Shown: positions 34,004-40,317 of the stretch, one piece after another
How the letters are laid out: every line of letters begins with the position of its first letter
How positions within the stretch are numbered: position 1 is the stretch's first letter
Assembly: GCA_029213165.1 (NCBI GenBank)
Contig: JARGNO010000017.1
Coordinates: 1-64,000, forward strand
Direction of reading: 5' to 3'
Length of the DNA stretch: 64,000 nt
From: Minwuia sp.
Lineage (GTDB): Bacteria; Pseudomonadota; Alphaproteobacteria; Minwuiales; Minwuiaceae
Notes under the pieces: model-generated
Database searches by the model: none
Seen by the model: only the letters and a program-made list of their open reading frames with translations
What the model was told of the DNA's origin: nothing
Translations under genes and position numbers: made by a program

Positions 34004-37000
34004 TCAGTAGCGCCGTTCCCAGGTCAGGCCCGTGCTGCCGCCGCCGCCGCGGCCGACCTCGGCATCCACCTTCAGGTTCGGCAACACATCGATCTCCACG
34101 ACAACGCTCCCGGCCTCCGAATCCAGCGATTGCTTGGCACCGACATAGACCCCCTCGCGCACATACCGACCGACGGCTACAGAACCGGAGGAGTCGGGGT
34201 CTGCCCCTTCCTCCACCCGCAGGACGTCCAGGCCAACAGCCTCCCGCAGCTTGTCAGTGGCGCCGCTGCCGCCGTTGGTCAGGGTATTGATGCTCTGCGC
34301 AAGCTGGATCGCCTCCAGCGGGCTCATGGATTGGGCCGACTTGTCGAACAGCAGGCGCGGCAGCACCTCGTCCTCCGGCAATTCGGGGGTCGAGGAGAAC
34401 GCGATATCCGGCTTCGCCGGGCTGCCGGAAATGCTGATGGTGCCCTCCAGGTCACCGCTCTGACGGGTCAGGGCGATGTTGAACCGGGGCTGCATGTCCC
34501 CGGTAAGCCCGATCTCCCCGGTCGAGACCTGAAAATCCTTGCCGAGCAGCGAAAGATGGCCGCGTACCACGCCGATGTTCACGTCGACCTGCGGCTCCGG
34601 CAGGCGGCCCCTTACCGTGACCGTGCCGCTCCATTCACTGTCCAGGCCCCGCCCACGCACGAACAGGCGTCCGGGCGCATCAATGACCACATCAAGTGCC
34701 ACGGGCAGTTCATCCGCAGGTTCCTCCCCGCCATCACCGGCCGGTGCGGCATCAGCATCCCCAGCCAACGCGATATCGACCACGCTGGGTGGCAGATTGT
34801 CGGTGATGAGCCGGATCTCGCCCTCATCGATCGTCGTCCGGTTCACGACCTGCACCAGACTGCCATCCCAGGTCACATCCGTGTTGCCGGAGACAAGGAT
34901 CGTCGCTTCCTCCCGACTGACCGCACGCAGCCGGTCGAGCGAGACCTTCACACTGGCCTTGCGGTCAGCACCCAGCAGCCGTGCCGTGCCGCTGCCACTG
35001 ACACTTCCGCCGGATGGATCAACCGCAGAAAGCTCCAGTTCCCCCTCACCGCTGTCGGCAAAGCCGGTGGTCAGGGTCAAACGCTCCAGGATCGTGCCAG
35101 TCAGCAGGTTCTCGTATCGGCCATCCGTGATCGCGACGTTGCCCCGCATGACCGGTGTTCCGACCGTGCCGGAAATATCCACGGCAATGCTGGCCGAGCC
35201 TTCAAGCAGGTGATCCCCCTCCGGCAGCAACTGCATCAACCTGGCCAGGCTGCCCTGCCAGTCGATGCTGCCCTGCAGCGCGCCACCGGGCGCAGGTTCC
35301 GGCAGGAATGTCCCCTGACCCTGTCGAACACCGGCGGTGATCTCGGCCAGAAGCGGCGTTTCGAATGGACCCGAGATACTGGTCCTGGCCCGTGCCGTCT
35401 CACCATTCCAGTTGGCGTCGAGCGCGATGTTGAAACGCGCGCCGATCTCGTCGCCCGGGGGCTGCAGATCATTGACCTGCATTGAAACCCTGGCCTTCTC
35501 ACCGGCAGCAGTACTGTCAAATCGGATATCCGCCGCCAACATGCCCTGCACCCCGCCAATACCGCCGATCGCGGCCAGCGGTCCCAGCGGCAGGGCACTG
35601 ACCCGGGCCGTGGCATCCAGCAGGTCCGCAGCGTATCGCGCGTCAGCCACGACTTCACCGCCGAAGGATGTTCCCAGACGCAGTCCGGCCAGGACAATGG
35701 TTTCGCCAATCCGGAGGCTGAAGGGCTGCAGGGCCTCGATGGCCGCATCGTCGCTTTCCAGCCGCAGGTTTCCGACATCGATCTTCGGACCTTCCGGATC
35801 ACTCAGGTCCGCCAGGACGCTGGCTGTCAGGTGCGCAGGCTCCGGCGCAGTGGCAGACAGGGTGAGGTCGATGCTCGGGCGCGAGAAGCTGCCGCCAATC
35901 CGGGCTTCCGCCTTCTCGATCCGTGCGCCATCCGCCCGGATGTCCTGTATCGTCAGGTCACCCCGCATCGCGGGACTGTCGGACAGCAGTGACGCGACAT
36001 GCATGGTCAGGTGGATATCCGACAGACTGACGCCTGCATCGGCGGCTTCCAGTCGCTTCAGGGTCACACCGATATCGGCGCCATGGTCACCCGCCTCCGG
36101 CGCCAGGGCGACAGTCGCATCCAATGCCCCCGCGAGGGGAACGCCAAACAGGGCGGCGACACGCGAAAGCTCATCACTGGTCGCTGCCAGATTGGCACGA
36201 TAGCCCGGGGTCGCGAGATCGGCGGATGCCGTACCCTCCAGCTTCAATCCGGCAAGCGACGCGGCAAGCGACTTCAGTTCGGCGCGCTGGAAGCCATCTC
36301 CCATGGCGAACCGCAGATCGACATCCAGCGCTTCATCTCCCCACTGACCGTCCAGGCTCAGACTTCCCGCCGGGTTGGTGGCCAGATCGCTGACGTCATA
36401 GTCCAGCGAAGGCGACATGAGGATGATGTCACCACTGCCGACAGAGACCAGTTCCAGTCTGCCAACCGCACGTGGCGCATCTGCAGTGCCGGAAACCCTG
36501 CCGCGCAGGCGGATGGGGCCTTCCACCAGCACATCGTCAGGCAACAGGCCACCCGGCACCACAGGCATGTCGAGCGCGTAGTCTCCCTTCACCGAACCCT
36601 GGGCATCCAGTCCCGCGTCGACGGTCAGCCGTGGCCCGGCCGTTACGGAAACCGCCAGGTCAAGCATTGCCGCCCCCGCCGCAAGTGGTTTCGCGACGGC
36701 CGCAAGCCTTACCCCCGATCCGACAGCCGACTGGACCATCCCGTCGATGAAGGACAGGTCCGTCAGGTCGCCTGACAGCCGGACCTCGCCACCACCATCC
36801 GGAACCACGCCGTCAGCGGTAACACGCAGTCGCGCACTGCCCTGGCGCAAGGCCGAATCCGCGCCGGGCAATTTCGAGAGTTCCGGCACCAGCAGCACCA
36901 GTTCCGCATCCAGCTTGGGGTCCGGCAGAGATGTCGCGACGTCGCCAGACAGGCCGAACGCCGCCGCTGTCAGATCCAGCCCCGTGACACTGACCTGCTC

Positions 37001-38371
37001 CGCCCCCGCCAAGACATGCGCCGTCAGCTGCGGCGACGATCCAAGCATGTCGTTCAGCGCCGGATCACCCAGAGAGGGTTCCACCACATCGACCGCAACA
37101 TCTCCGTCGAAGTCAGCGCCCTTCAGCCCCCCTGTGACCTTCAGCCTGACGGCAGCTGCGCCCATGGTTTCGAACGCGGGTTGCATGAGTTCTGCGGCAA
37201 CCGAGAGATCGGGACTGTCCAGAAGACCACTGACCTCGGCCCTGATCCGGGCGGCATCAAAGGTTGCGCCAGCCAGCAGGGCATCCAGCGCCGGGTGTCG
37301 ATGGACATCCACGACGGTACCGAGATTGACCGTTCCGGCATCGAGATCAACCGATCCACTGGCGCTGAGCGTGGCGGAAGCCGTCGAAAGCTCCAGCCGG
37401 GAAACCTGCACCTGGGTTTCATCCGCGCCACGCGCCGAAAGATGAAACGGGATCGTCTCACCGGTCAGGTCGGTCGGCACAGGCGCCGCCGCCAGCAGGT
37501 TGGCAACACCGTCCGCATCCAGCGCCCATCCCGTCGCCGGATCAGCACTGAGTTGCAGGCCCAGCAGCAGGTCGGCAACCCGCTCCACAGTCAGTGAGAT
37601 ATCCACTGCGGCGGAACCAAAGGGGCCACCGCCCTCCACAATCAGGTGCAGGCGTTCATCTGTGGTGATCCCAAGCGGCTCCGCCATCGGTGCAAGGACG
37701 GGCAGGTCGGCGGCCATCGCGATCTGCGATTTCCGTGTCGCGAAATCCAGGGCCACATCCACCCGCGCGTAGCTTGCCTTCAGGTCCAGCGGCTCGACAT
37801 TCAGCGCGATACGCTGGTCCTTGTCCGCGTCGCGCACGGAGCCATTGATCGAGAACTGCGCGCCACCCGGCACCAGGTCGCCCCCCAGCGACAACACATC
37901 GACGCGCAGCAAGTCCAGCCGCACAGGCAGCGGCGCACGCGGCCATTCGAAGGATTCGAGAAGGGGCGTCGGATCATCCGGCTCCGGTTCTGCCGGCGCA
38001 CTGCTGGCCGGGGCGCGCGCGACATCAATATGCGCGACGGTCAGGCTCTCGACAGTCAGCGCACCACCCAGCAACGCCGCCAGATCCCAGTCCAGCGCCA
38101 GATCGTCCAGCGTCAGCCAGGTGCCCTGCGCATCCGCGATCTCGAGATGGCCGAGGCGGATCACGCCATCGGATTCCCTGCGAAAGCCACTGCCGGACAC
38201 CTGCAGTTCGCCCGGCGTGCTGGCCGCCGCTAGGCCCTGATCCAGCGCAGCGGTCCAGGTATCCTCCCCGGCAACCTCCAGAAACCAGAACAGGCCGACG
38301 AGAACCAGCAGGACCGGCGTCAGCAATACCGCCAGCGACCAGAGCAGGATCTTGCGCACGTGACGCAGCAT
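34004..38371 (-). CDS. tamB: TamB inner-membrane translocation/assembly and lipid-transport protein
   Basis: 1455 residues. One N-terminal membrane anchor (about residues 8-33, LLWSLAVLLTPVLLVLVGLF) is followed by a very long periplasmic region of repeated beta-strands with the AsmA/TamB character. The C-terminal DUF490 domain includes GHLSLLGKDFQVSTGEIGL and ends in the aromatic TWERRY. TamB bridges inner and outer membranes and works with TamA in outer-membrane protein assembly and phospholipid transport. Its start shares one base with the tamA stop, so the two are coupled. The length is within family range, at the long end. Confidence 0.93.
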   Translation of the reverse strand: MLRHVRKILLWSLAVLLTPVLLVLVGLFWFLEVAGEDTWTAALDQGLAAASTPGELQVSGSGFRRESDGVIRLGHLEIADAQGTWLTLDDLALDWDLAALLGGALTVESLTVAHIDVARAPASSAPAEPEPDDPTPLLESFEWPRAPLPVRLDLLRVDVLSLGGDLVPGGAQFSINGSVRDADKDQRIALNVEPLDLKASYARVDVALDFATRKSQIAMAADLPVLAPMAEPLGITTDERLHLIVEGGGPFGSAAVDISLTVERVADLLLGLQLSADPATGWALDADGVANLLAAAPVPTDLTGETIPFHLSARGADETQVQVSRLELSTASATLSASGSVDLDAGTVNLGTVVDVHRHPALDALLAGATFDAARIRAEVSGLLDSPDLSVAAELMQPAFETMGAAAVRLKVTGGLKGADFDGDVAVDVVEPSLGDPALNDMLGSSPQLTAHVLAGAEQVSVTGLDLTAAAFGLSGDVATSLPDPKLDAELVLLVPELSKLPGADSALRQGSARLRVTADGVVPDGGGEVRLSGDLTDLSFIDGMVQSAVGSGVRLAAVAKPLAAGAAMLDLAVSVTAGPRLTVDAGLDAQGSVKGDYALDMPVVPGGLLPDDVLVEGPIRLRGRVSGTADAPRAVGRLELVSVGSGDIILMSPSLDYDVSDLATNPAGSLSLDGQWGDEALDVDLRFAMGDGFQRAELKSLAASLAGLKLEGTASADLATPGYRANLAATSDELSRVAALFGVPLAGALDATVALAPEAGDHGADIGVTLKRLEAADAGVSLSDIHLTMHVASLLSDSPAMRGDLTIQDIRADGARIEKAEARIGGSFSRPSIDLTLSATAPEPAHLTASVLADLSDPEGPKIDVGNLRLESDDAAIEALQPFSLRIGETIVLAGLRLGTSFGGEVVADARYAADLLDATARVSALPLGPLAAIGGIGGVQGMLAADIRFDSTAAGEKARVSMQVNDLQPPGDEIGARFNIALDANWNGETARARTSISGPFETPLLAEITAGVRQGQGTFLPEPAPGGALQGSIDWQGSLARLMQLLPEGDHLLEGSASIAVDISGTVGTPVMRGNVAITDGRYENLLTGTILERLTLTTGFADSGEGELELSAVDPSGGSVSGSGTARLLGADRKASVKVSLDRLRAVSREEATILVSGNTDVTWDGSLVQVVNRTTIDEGEIRLITDNLPPSVVDIALAGDADAAPAGDGGEEPADELPVALDVVIDAPGRLFVRGRGLDSEWSGTVTVRGRLPEPQVDVNIGVVRGHLSLLGKDFQVSTGEIGLTGDMQPRFNIALTRQSGDLEGTISISGSPAKPDIAFSSTPELPEDEVLPRLLFDKSAQSMSPLEAIQLAQSINTLTNGGSGATDKLREAVGLDVLRVEEGADPDSSGSVAVGRYVREGVYVGAKQSLDSEAGSVVVEIDVLPNLKVDAEVGRGGGGSTGLTWERRY

Positions 38372-40239
38372 CAGAACGCCTGTCCCAGGCTGATGTAGAA
38401 CTCGAAGAAACTGTCGCCTGCGCGGCGGCGCAGCGGGAAGGCCAGATCAAAGCGGATCGGGCCGACCGGACTGTAATAGCGCAGCCCGCCGCCGACACCG
38501 ACGTTCACCCTTTCCTTGAAGTTCGGGAAGGGTTCCTCCTCCACCACACCGGCATCGACAAAGGTCACGAAACCAAAGCTGTCGGTCACCTTGATGCGCG
38601 CCTCCAGCCCCGTCTCGACCAGGAAACGGCCGCCGGTTTCATCGCCCAGATCAACCGGAGAGATGGAACGGAAACCGAAACCGCGCACGGAACTGCCACC
38701 GCCAGCAAACAGAAGCTGGTTCACCGGCACATCCTCCAGATCACCACTGAGGATGGAAGAGACCCGTGCGCGGGAGGCAAGCACCAGACCATCGTCGCCG
38801 ATGACCGGCAGGTAATAGGAACCACCGGCTGAAACCGATCCGAAATAGGTCGGCGAGCCGTCGTTGAGTCCCATGTACGGCGTCGCGGACAAGAAGAGCT
38901 TGTGGCCCCGCGTCGCGTTCAGGGGATCATTGGTACGCACCTGGCGCGCGGTCAGCGGCAAACCGACCAGGTAAGCGGTGTCACTCTCAACATCGGTTTC
39001 CGTCGCCGAGACGCTGCCCTTGATCGCGCCGCTGACGGTCCAGCCGCCTTCCAGACCCGTGCGCATTCCGACCTGCACCTCGGCAGCCTGTTCGTCGAAG
39101 GCATCGTCGAAGGTATTGCGAAGCTCCGCGCCCTCGAAGACCGTCCAGCGCGCCGCCGGATACCGCGGGCGCGAAAGTTCGGCGGAAAGTTTCTGCTCAT
39201 CCAGCGACAGGTCCAGCTCGGTGCGCAGGTCTTCTGCCCGGCCGAACAGGTTGCGGTGTCGCCAACCGGCCCGGACACCGGGCCCCCGGTCCGTGTCATA
39301 GCGCACGCTGCCACTGATGGATTTCGCCTTGGCCCCCGTTGCCTTCACCGTCACCGGCTGCGGGCCATCCTCCAGGTTCCGGGTCGGCTCATGCTCCGGC
39401 AGGCGCACACTGACGGTCTTGAACAGGCCCGTGCCCGCCATCCTGTCCTGCAACTGGTTGAGTTCGGAGCGCGCAACGGGCGCATCCTTGTCCCAGGTGA
39501 TCATGCCCCGCAGGTAATCCTGCTCGACCCCCGTCTCCCCCTCGATGATCACATCGCCATAGGTGATGTAGGGGCCACTGCGAAAGGTGACCGTGACGTC
39601 GAGTGTGCCGGATTCGCTGTTGGCCCGGGCAACGCGTGAATCGAACGCCGCATGCGGAAACCCGTGTTCCTGCAGGTAAGTGACGATACGCGCTTCCGAT
39701 TCCACGATGCTCTCGCCATCTGCGACGACGCCGGGTGGCATTTCAGCCGTGGCATCCAGCACGGCCGCTTCCGGCAGGGTCGGGCGGACCTTGCGGAAGG
39801 CAACGCTGTAGCTGCCGATCATGAACAGCGTCCCCGGTTCTGCCCTGAACGTCACGGCGGGTGAGGCACCGTCCGTAACATTGGTGGTCACCTTCGCGTC
39901 ATAGAACCCACTGGCCCGCAGGATGCGCTGCAACTCCCCGATGTCGCCATCCGCCCGGCGTTGGAGCGCGGCAGTGCTGCGAACGCCCCGGGATTGCAAG
40001 GTGAAGGTCTTCAGTACACCGCGTGCAATCTCGTCCAGCCCCATGTCACCGGGCAGCCCGTCGATCCGTGCGGTGTAGGTAACGTCACCCAGCCTGGTCT
40101 TCTGCGCCGCCTCGTCTTCGCCAATGATCTGATCCAGGCCAACCGTTTCACAGCCACCAAGCATGGCCAGAACCAGAAACAGCCCCAGGATGCGTGTGAG
40201 ACCCGGCAGTCTGAATGTCAGGCTGGATAGCGGAATCAG
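38371..40239 (-). CDS. tamA: TamA-type Omp85 outer-membrane protein, probable lipoprotein from a CTG start
   Basis: 622 residues if started at CTG 40239. POTRA-like domains fill about residues 55-330, and a 16-strand Omp85 barrel ends in FEFYISLGQAF, with the terminal phenylalanine of the BamA signal. The first ATG (40164) would leave the meaningless N-terminus MLGGCET. Reading upstream in frame gives LTFRLPGLTRILGLFLVLAM before LGGC, a complete lipoprotein signal with a lipobox. No ATG, GTG or TTG exists in that frame before the stop at 40252, but CTG 40239 has GGAG six bases upstream (ATT 40236 is an alternative). A TATAAT box lies upstream at 40312. Coupled to tamB. Confidence 0.88.
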   Translation of the reverse strand: MIPLSSLTFRLPGLTRILGLFLVLAMLGGCETVGLDQIIGEDEAAQKTRLGDVTYTARIDGLPGDMGLDEIARGVLKTFTLQSRGVRSTAALQRRADGDIGELQRILRASGFYDAKVTTNVTDGASPAVTFRAEPGTLFMIGSYSVAFRKVRPTLPEAAVLDATAEMPPGVVADGESIVESEARIVTYLQEHGFPHAAFDSRVARANSESGTLDVTVTFRSGPYITYGDVIIEGETGVEQDYLRGMITWDKDAPVARSELNQLQDRMAGTGLFKTVSVRLPEHEPTRNLEDGPQPVTVKATGAKAKSISGSVRYDTDRGPGVRAGWRHRNLFGRAEDLRTELDLSLDEQKLSAELSRPRYPAARWTVFEGAELRNTFDDAFDEQAAEVQVGMRTGLEGGWTVSGAIKGSVSATETDVESDTAYLVGLPLTARQVRTNDPLNATRGHKLFLSATPYMGLNDGSPTYFGSVSAGGSYYLPVIGDDGLVLASRARVSSILSGDLEDVPVNQLLFAGGGSSVRGFGFRSISPVDLGDETGGRFLVETGLEARIKVTDSFGFVTFVDAGVVEEEPFPNFKERVNVGVGGGLRYYSPVGPIRFDLAFPLRRRAGDSFFEFYISLGQAF

Positions 40240-40311
40240 GAAAATCTCCAGTCAATCTGCCGACAGGAAGACTGCCGGGAATGGTTCGGGGCGTGGCGCC
40301 GTCACATCGTG

Positions 40312-40317
40312 ATTATA
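40312..40317 (-). promoter_or_regulatory. Candidate -10 box of the tamA-tamB operon
   Basis: A perfect TATAAT is read on the minus strand at 40317-40312, in a GC-rich setting, about 73 bases before the proposed CTG start of tamA and after the end of the flavodoxin-like gene. No good -35 hexamer is at 16-18 bases, so the box may depend on an activator. Confidence 0.4.

Follow-up and report, generated by a model that had tools for sequence, protein, structure and literature searches.

The gene for a TamA homologue in Minwuia sp. raises the question of where its translation begins. In the window, i.e. the entire 64,000-nt stretch of DNA analysed here, the tamA open frame occupies positions 38371-40251 of the minus strand and is closed upstream by an in-frame TGA (40252..40254). 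Downstream of this TGA (40254-40252) the minus strand reads LEIFLIPLSSLTFRLPGLTRILGLFLVLAMLGGCETVG..., and ATG, GTG and TTG are absent until ATG 40164-40162, which lies within the lipobox (MLGGC). The initial annotation had described this situation, with coordinates that proved correct when we re-read the minus strand; it favoured CTG 40239 as start and named ATT 40236 as the alternative. Our proposed coding sequence (38371..40236, minus strand) runs from ATT 40236, or CTG 40239, to TGA 38373-38371 and would encode the lipoprotein form of an Omp85 barrel protein with POTRA.

The assignment to TamA is based on three features. A C-terminal Omp85 barrel (Pfam PF01103, residues 330-622, E 7.5e-40) scores above the cut-off, POTRA (PF07244) reaches 40.4 bits against a cut-off of 21.3 (E 5e-10), and the adjacent downstream gene is tamB (34004..38371, minus strand; PF04357, E 1.5e-43, 150 bits), which shares one base with the tamA stop (TGATG). 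The closest NCBIfam model is ATportTamA, but its 180 bits stay below the cut-off of 625, and the protein is therefore filed as a TamA homologue, not as an equivalog. The lipo_TamL model gave 77 bits, against a cut-off of 400.

We compared the seven Minwuia genomes available, each from a different species: that of the window and six others, two of them single-contig. All seven carry tamA, with 77-91% identity in four of the others and about 50% in the remaining two (G003 and G006). A canonical start with a Shine-Dalgarno (SD) sequence upstream of the lipobox was found in none of the seven. Isolated TTG codons do occur. IMCC3096 has a single one, seven codons past the ATT, which could give a lipoprotein MNLPGRARILG...; G003 and G006 have one each, which sits at the margin of the hydrophobic core and is not followed by any basic residue, and G003 has a second TTG far upstream, a position separated by a stop in G006. 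For the TTG of IMCC3096 and that of G003, the automatic caller detected no SD. We also considered and discarded ATG 40164, the first canonical codon, which the initial annotation had dismissed as well: the two closest orthologues have GCG in its place. Minwuia tamA is thus confirmed as a genuine gene without a usable canonical start, a conserved oddity whose probable start is a codon both rare and weak (AUU/AUC/AUA, or CUG). Since the six other genomes equally lack a usable canonical start, the loss of a normal start codon through a sequencing or assembly error, which the initial annotation had named as a way in which it could be wrong, is in practice excluded. It is true that the window comes from a 120-contig draft and that a single base change converts CTG to ATG, but the codons at this place differ among the other genomes, the two single-contig ones included.

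The signal that the missing start would have to precede is well preserved. In the window, the predicted lipoprotein signal peptide (M)PLSSLTFRLPGLTRILGLFLVLAMLGG-C (40150..40236, minus strand) ends in the lipobox LGGC at 40161-40150, and a lipobox closes the hydrophobic core in all seven species (LAAC, LAGC or AAGC in the other six); the signal recognised earlier in the window is encoded in each of them. Minwuia TamA would accordingly carry a lipid at the Cys encoded by 40152-40150. Such a form had been called unusual. This holds in comparison with the enterobacteria, whose TamA shares the Omp85 barrel, POTRA and an adjacent tamB but carries an SPI signal that is cleaved off and is not lipidated; Minwuia TamA differs from it in having a lipobox and in lacking a canonical start. 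It does not hold within the Alphaproteobacteria, where lipoprotein-type TamA is common: by motif, about 13-16 of roughly 87 TamA proteins outside Minwuia have a lipobox (the automatic search gave 24 matches, a few of them not credible). Within an open-access subset of the literature, we found no papers on lipidated alphaproteobacterial TamA. An established lipoprotein of this kind is TamL of the Bacteroidota, an Omp85 protein that resembles TamA, has a lipoprotein signal and is encoded in operons with TamB, as is Minwuia TamA (PMC4494059, PMC12045153). The N-terminal lipoprotein signal with its lipobox Cys is found, as a motif, in the seven Minwuia species too; the Minwuia protein, however, is alphaproteobacterial and nearer to TamA than to TamL (180 vs 77 bits, NCBIfam, both under the curated cut-offs).

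Which codon is used, then? An SD core GGAG (40246..40249, minus strand) is conserved in five Minwuia species; in the more distant G003 and G006 it is AGGA. SD energies range from -6.4 to -6.9 kcal/mol, and in each of the seven species the predicted pairing is strongest at this position. The core and the codons behind it read GGAG attttcCTG ATT CCG in the window, GGAG aattccCTG ATT CCG in DHS20C03, GGAG attttcCCG ATT TCG in IMCC3096, GGAG agcttca ATC CTG ACC in oxhcr1, GGAG aacttcg ATC CTG ACG in SRR5242446, and AGGA cggtaccag ATA AGC ATC in both G003 and G006. An in-frame ATT, ATC or ATA (ATH; ATT/ATT/ATT/ATC/ATC/ATA/ATA across the seven species) therefore stands 7-9 nt past the aligned SD in every species, and it is the sole start candidate common to them; CTG lies near the SD in only four. 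For this reason we favour ATT (40234..40236, minus strand, 9 nt past GGAG) in the window, the codon previously listed second, and regard it as somewhat probable that Minwuia tamA starts at a near-cognate codon 7-9 nt past the SD core, ATT 40236 here and ATC or ATA elsewhere. From local codon frequencies, the chance that three independent lineages have ATH at either of two in-frame slots is ~4e-4, a rough figure calculated after the pattern had been noticed. Base-rate comparisons with other genes of the window gave little: with IMCC3096, homology extends into the upstream DNA, which makes the comparison uninformative, and with G006 there was too little synteny. The codon changes between the ATT and the Cys (16 synonymous vs 35 nonsynonymous) are not clearly coding-like and are too weak for placing the start.

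The preference for ATH over CTG is inferred from this conservation, and CTG 40239 (40237..40239, minus strand), with CTG or a different near-cognate codon used in the other species, stays a serious rival, possible though not the likely reading. It is preceded by GGAG at six bases, and in the DNA alignment the CTG of the window falls on that of oxhcr1, in a column common to four species and 29 codons ahead of the Cys in each. As ATT and CTG are adjacent, the sequence of the window by itself cannot decide between them. The use of CTG is made plausible by two species of the genus g125 (family f123; G131 and G325, loci L100/L214 and L215), in which GGAG-N7-CTG is conserved before the signal of a lipoprotein-type TamA; in the remaining four species of g125, a GTG lies upstream of the signal. 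The initial choice of CTG is thus tenable, but IMCC3096, a complete genome, has CCG in its place, G003 and G006 have no CTG near the SD, and the distance from SD to CTG varies between 6 nt in some Minwuia species and 10 in others. Furthermore, CUG accounts for only 0.024% of bacterial start codons and reaches about 0.86% of the efficiency of AUG (PMC11497404, a review). AUU, AUC and AUA count among the known start codons of bacteria (PMC4611024). A start further upstream combined with readthrough of the TGA, or one at ATG 40164 or another inner canonical codon yielding a protein without a signal, appears very unlikely. Three species keep a run of 17 codons, GTG 40305 to TGA 40252, in register with tamA, but two species lack any canonical start across the 40-odd codons ahead of the signal, and in G006 this stretch contains a stop. 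For the inner codon, the GCG of the nearest relatives counts against it, as does the need of an Omp85 protein for an export signal.

The favoured ATH start would place tamA beside two known genes. The IF3 gene infC, with an AUU or AUA start, and pcnB, with an AUU start, have a non-canonical AUH after a good SD, conserved across species; their output is kept low, and IF3 discriminates against their start codons. Minwuia tamA resembles them in that it has no canonical start, a conserved SD and an AUH in register across species. It differs in being an envelope-assembly gene with no evident autoregulatory loop, and in that its start is a prediction from sequence. An AUH start is the usual arrangement for the IF3 gene, and infC of Minwuia itself (L053 in this genome; AAGGGGAAACCC ATA GCC CGT CCG CCA ATG) appears to be ATA-started, so the genus very likely initiates at AUH codons elsewhere. 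The ATG five codons past this ATA might be picked by annotation tools. Besides infC and pcnB, few bacterial genes are known to retain a non-canonical start.

Initiation at an ATH codon 7-9 nt past the SD core would be weak. AUG, GUG and UUG are canonical because they are exempt from the discrimination that IF3 exerts against non-canonical triplets (PMC4611024), and IF3 would keep tamA initiation low. With a start codon that initiates poorly and that IF3 disfavours, TamA would be scarce, and possibly TamB as well through the 1-nt overlap; low output, IF3 dependence and coupling to tamB are what the arrangement suggests. The protein would be exported as a lipoprotein via signal peptidase II, its lipid anchor tethering the POTRA end to the outer membrane. 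That a weak start has been conserved suggests selection, either for low output or for control, the alternative being drift after loss of an ATG; the variety of ATT, ATC and ATA within Minwuia fits selection on a codon class rather than on one codon. A genus-wide non-canonical start in an envelope-assembly gene would offer a clean test bed for control at the level of the start codon. In practical terms, annotation tools restricted to ATG, GTG and TTG would misplace the tamA start and thereby remove the export signal of the protein.

To see tamA in a wider frame, we used a single automatic caller on 94 tamA loci of Alphaproteobacteria and on 70 bamA loci, almost all of which come from the same genomes. 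No canonical start was called for 12 of the tamA loci and for none of the bamA loci. Three of the 12 (L110, L112, L113) are failures of the caller, an ATG being visible; the remainder comprises five Minwuia, two f15, one f123 and one f16 locus. As these cases span just four lineages, the excess of tamA over bamA is suggestive only. A class-wide preference of tamA for weak or non-ATG starts was dropped, since loci with only GTG or TTG are as frequent in bamA (29/70) as in tamA (30/94). In tamA of the genus g17 (family f15; L079, L083), the 28 codons nearest the signal contain no canonical start, and ATT TGT TCA is conserved (G022, G146), but the good SD-like stretch is ~20 nt away, so the ATT is no more than a lead. 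It is rather doubtful, although conceivable, that lipoprotein-type TamA of the Alphaproteobacteria has kept a near-cognate start, or acquired one several times, as a translational throttle that would tie the TAM level to IF3 activity and, through the tamB overlap, set that of the whole envelope-assembly module. In the tamA locus L108 (G227), a canonical start close to the signal is not evident; an ATG lies out of frame, which hints at a frameshift or a fault of the assembly.

Finally, the 17-codon frame upstream of tamA (40252-40305, minus strand) encodes MTAPRPEPFPAVFLSAD and is kept, with related sequences, in the three nearest species; it was not seen in the others. Just upstream of the tamA leader lies TATAAT (40312-40317, minus strand), which is TATGAT in the two nearest relatives. 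This could be a -10 element, in which case the leader would be ~70 nt long.
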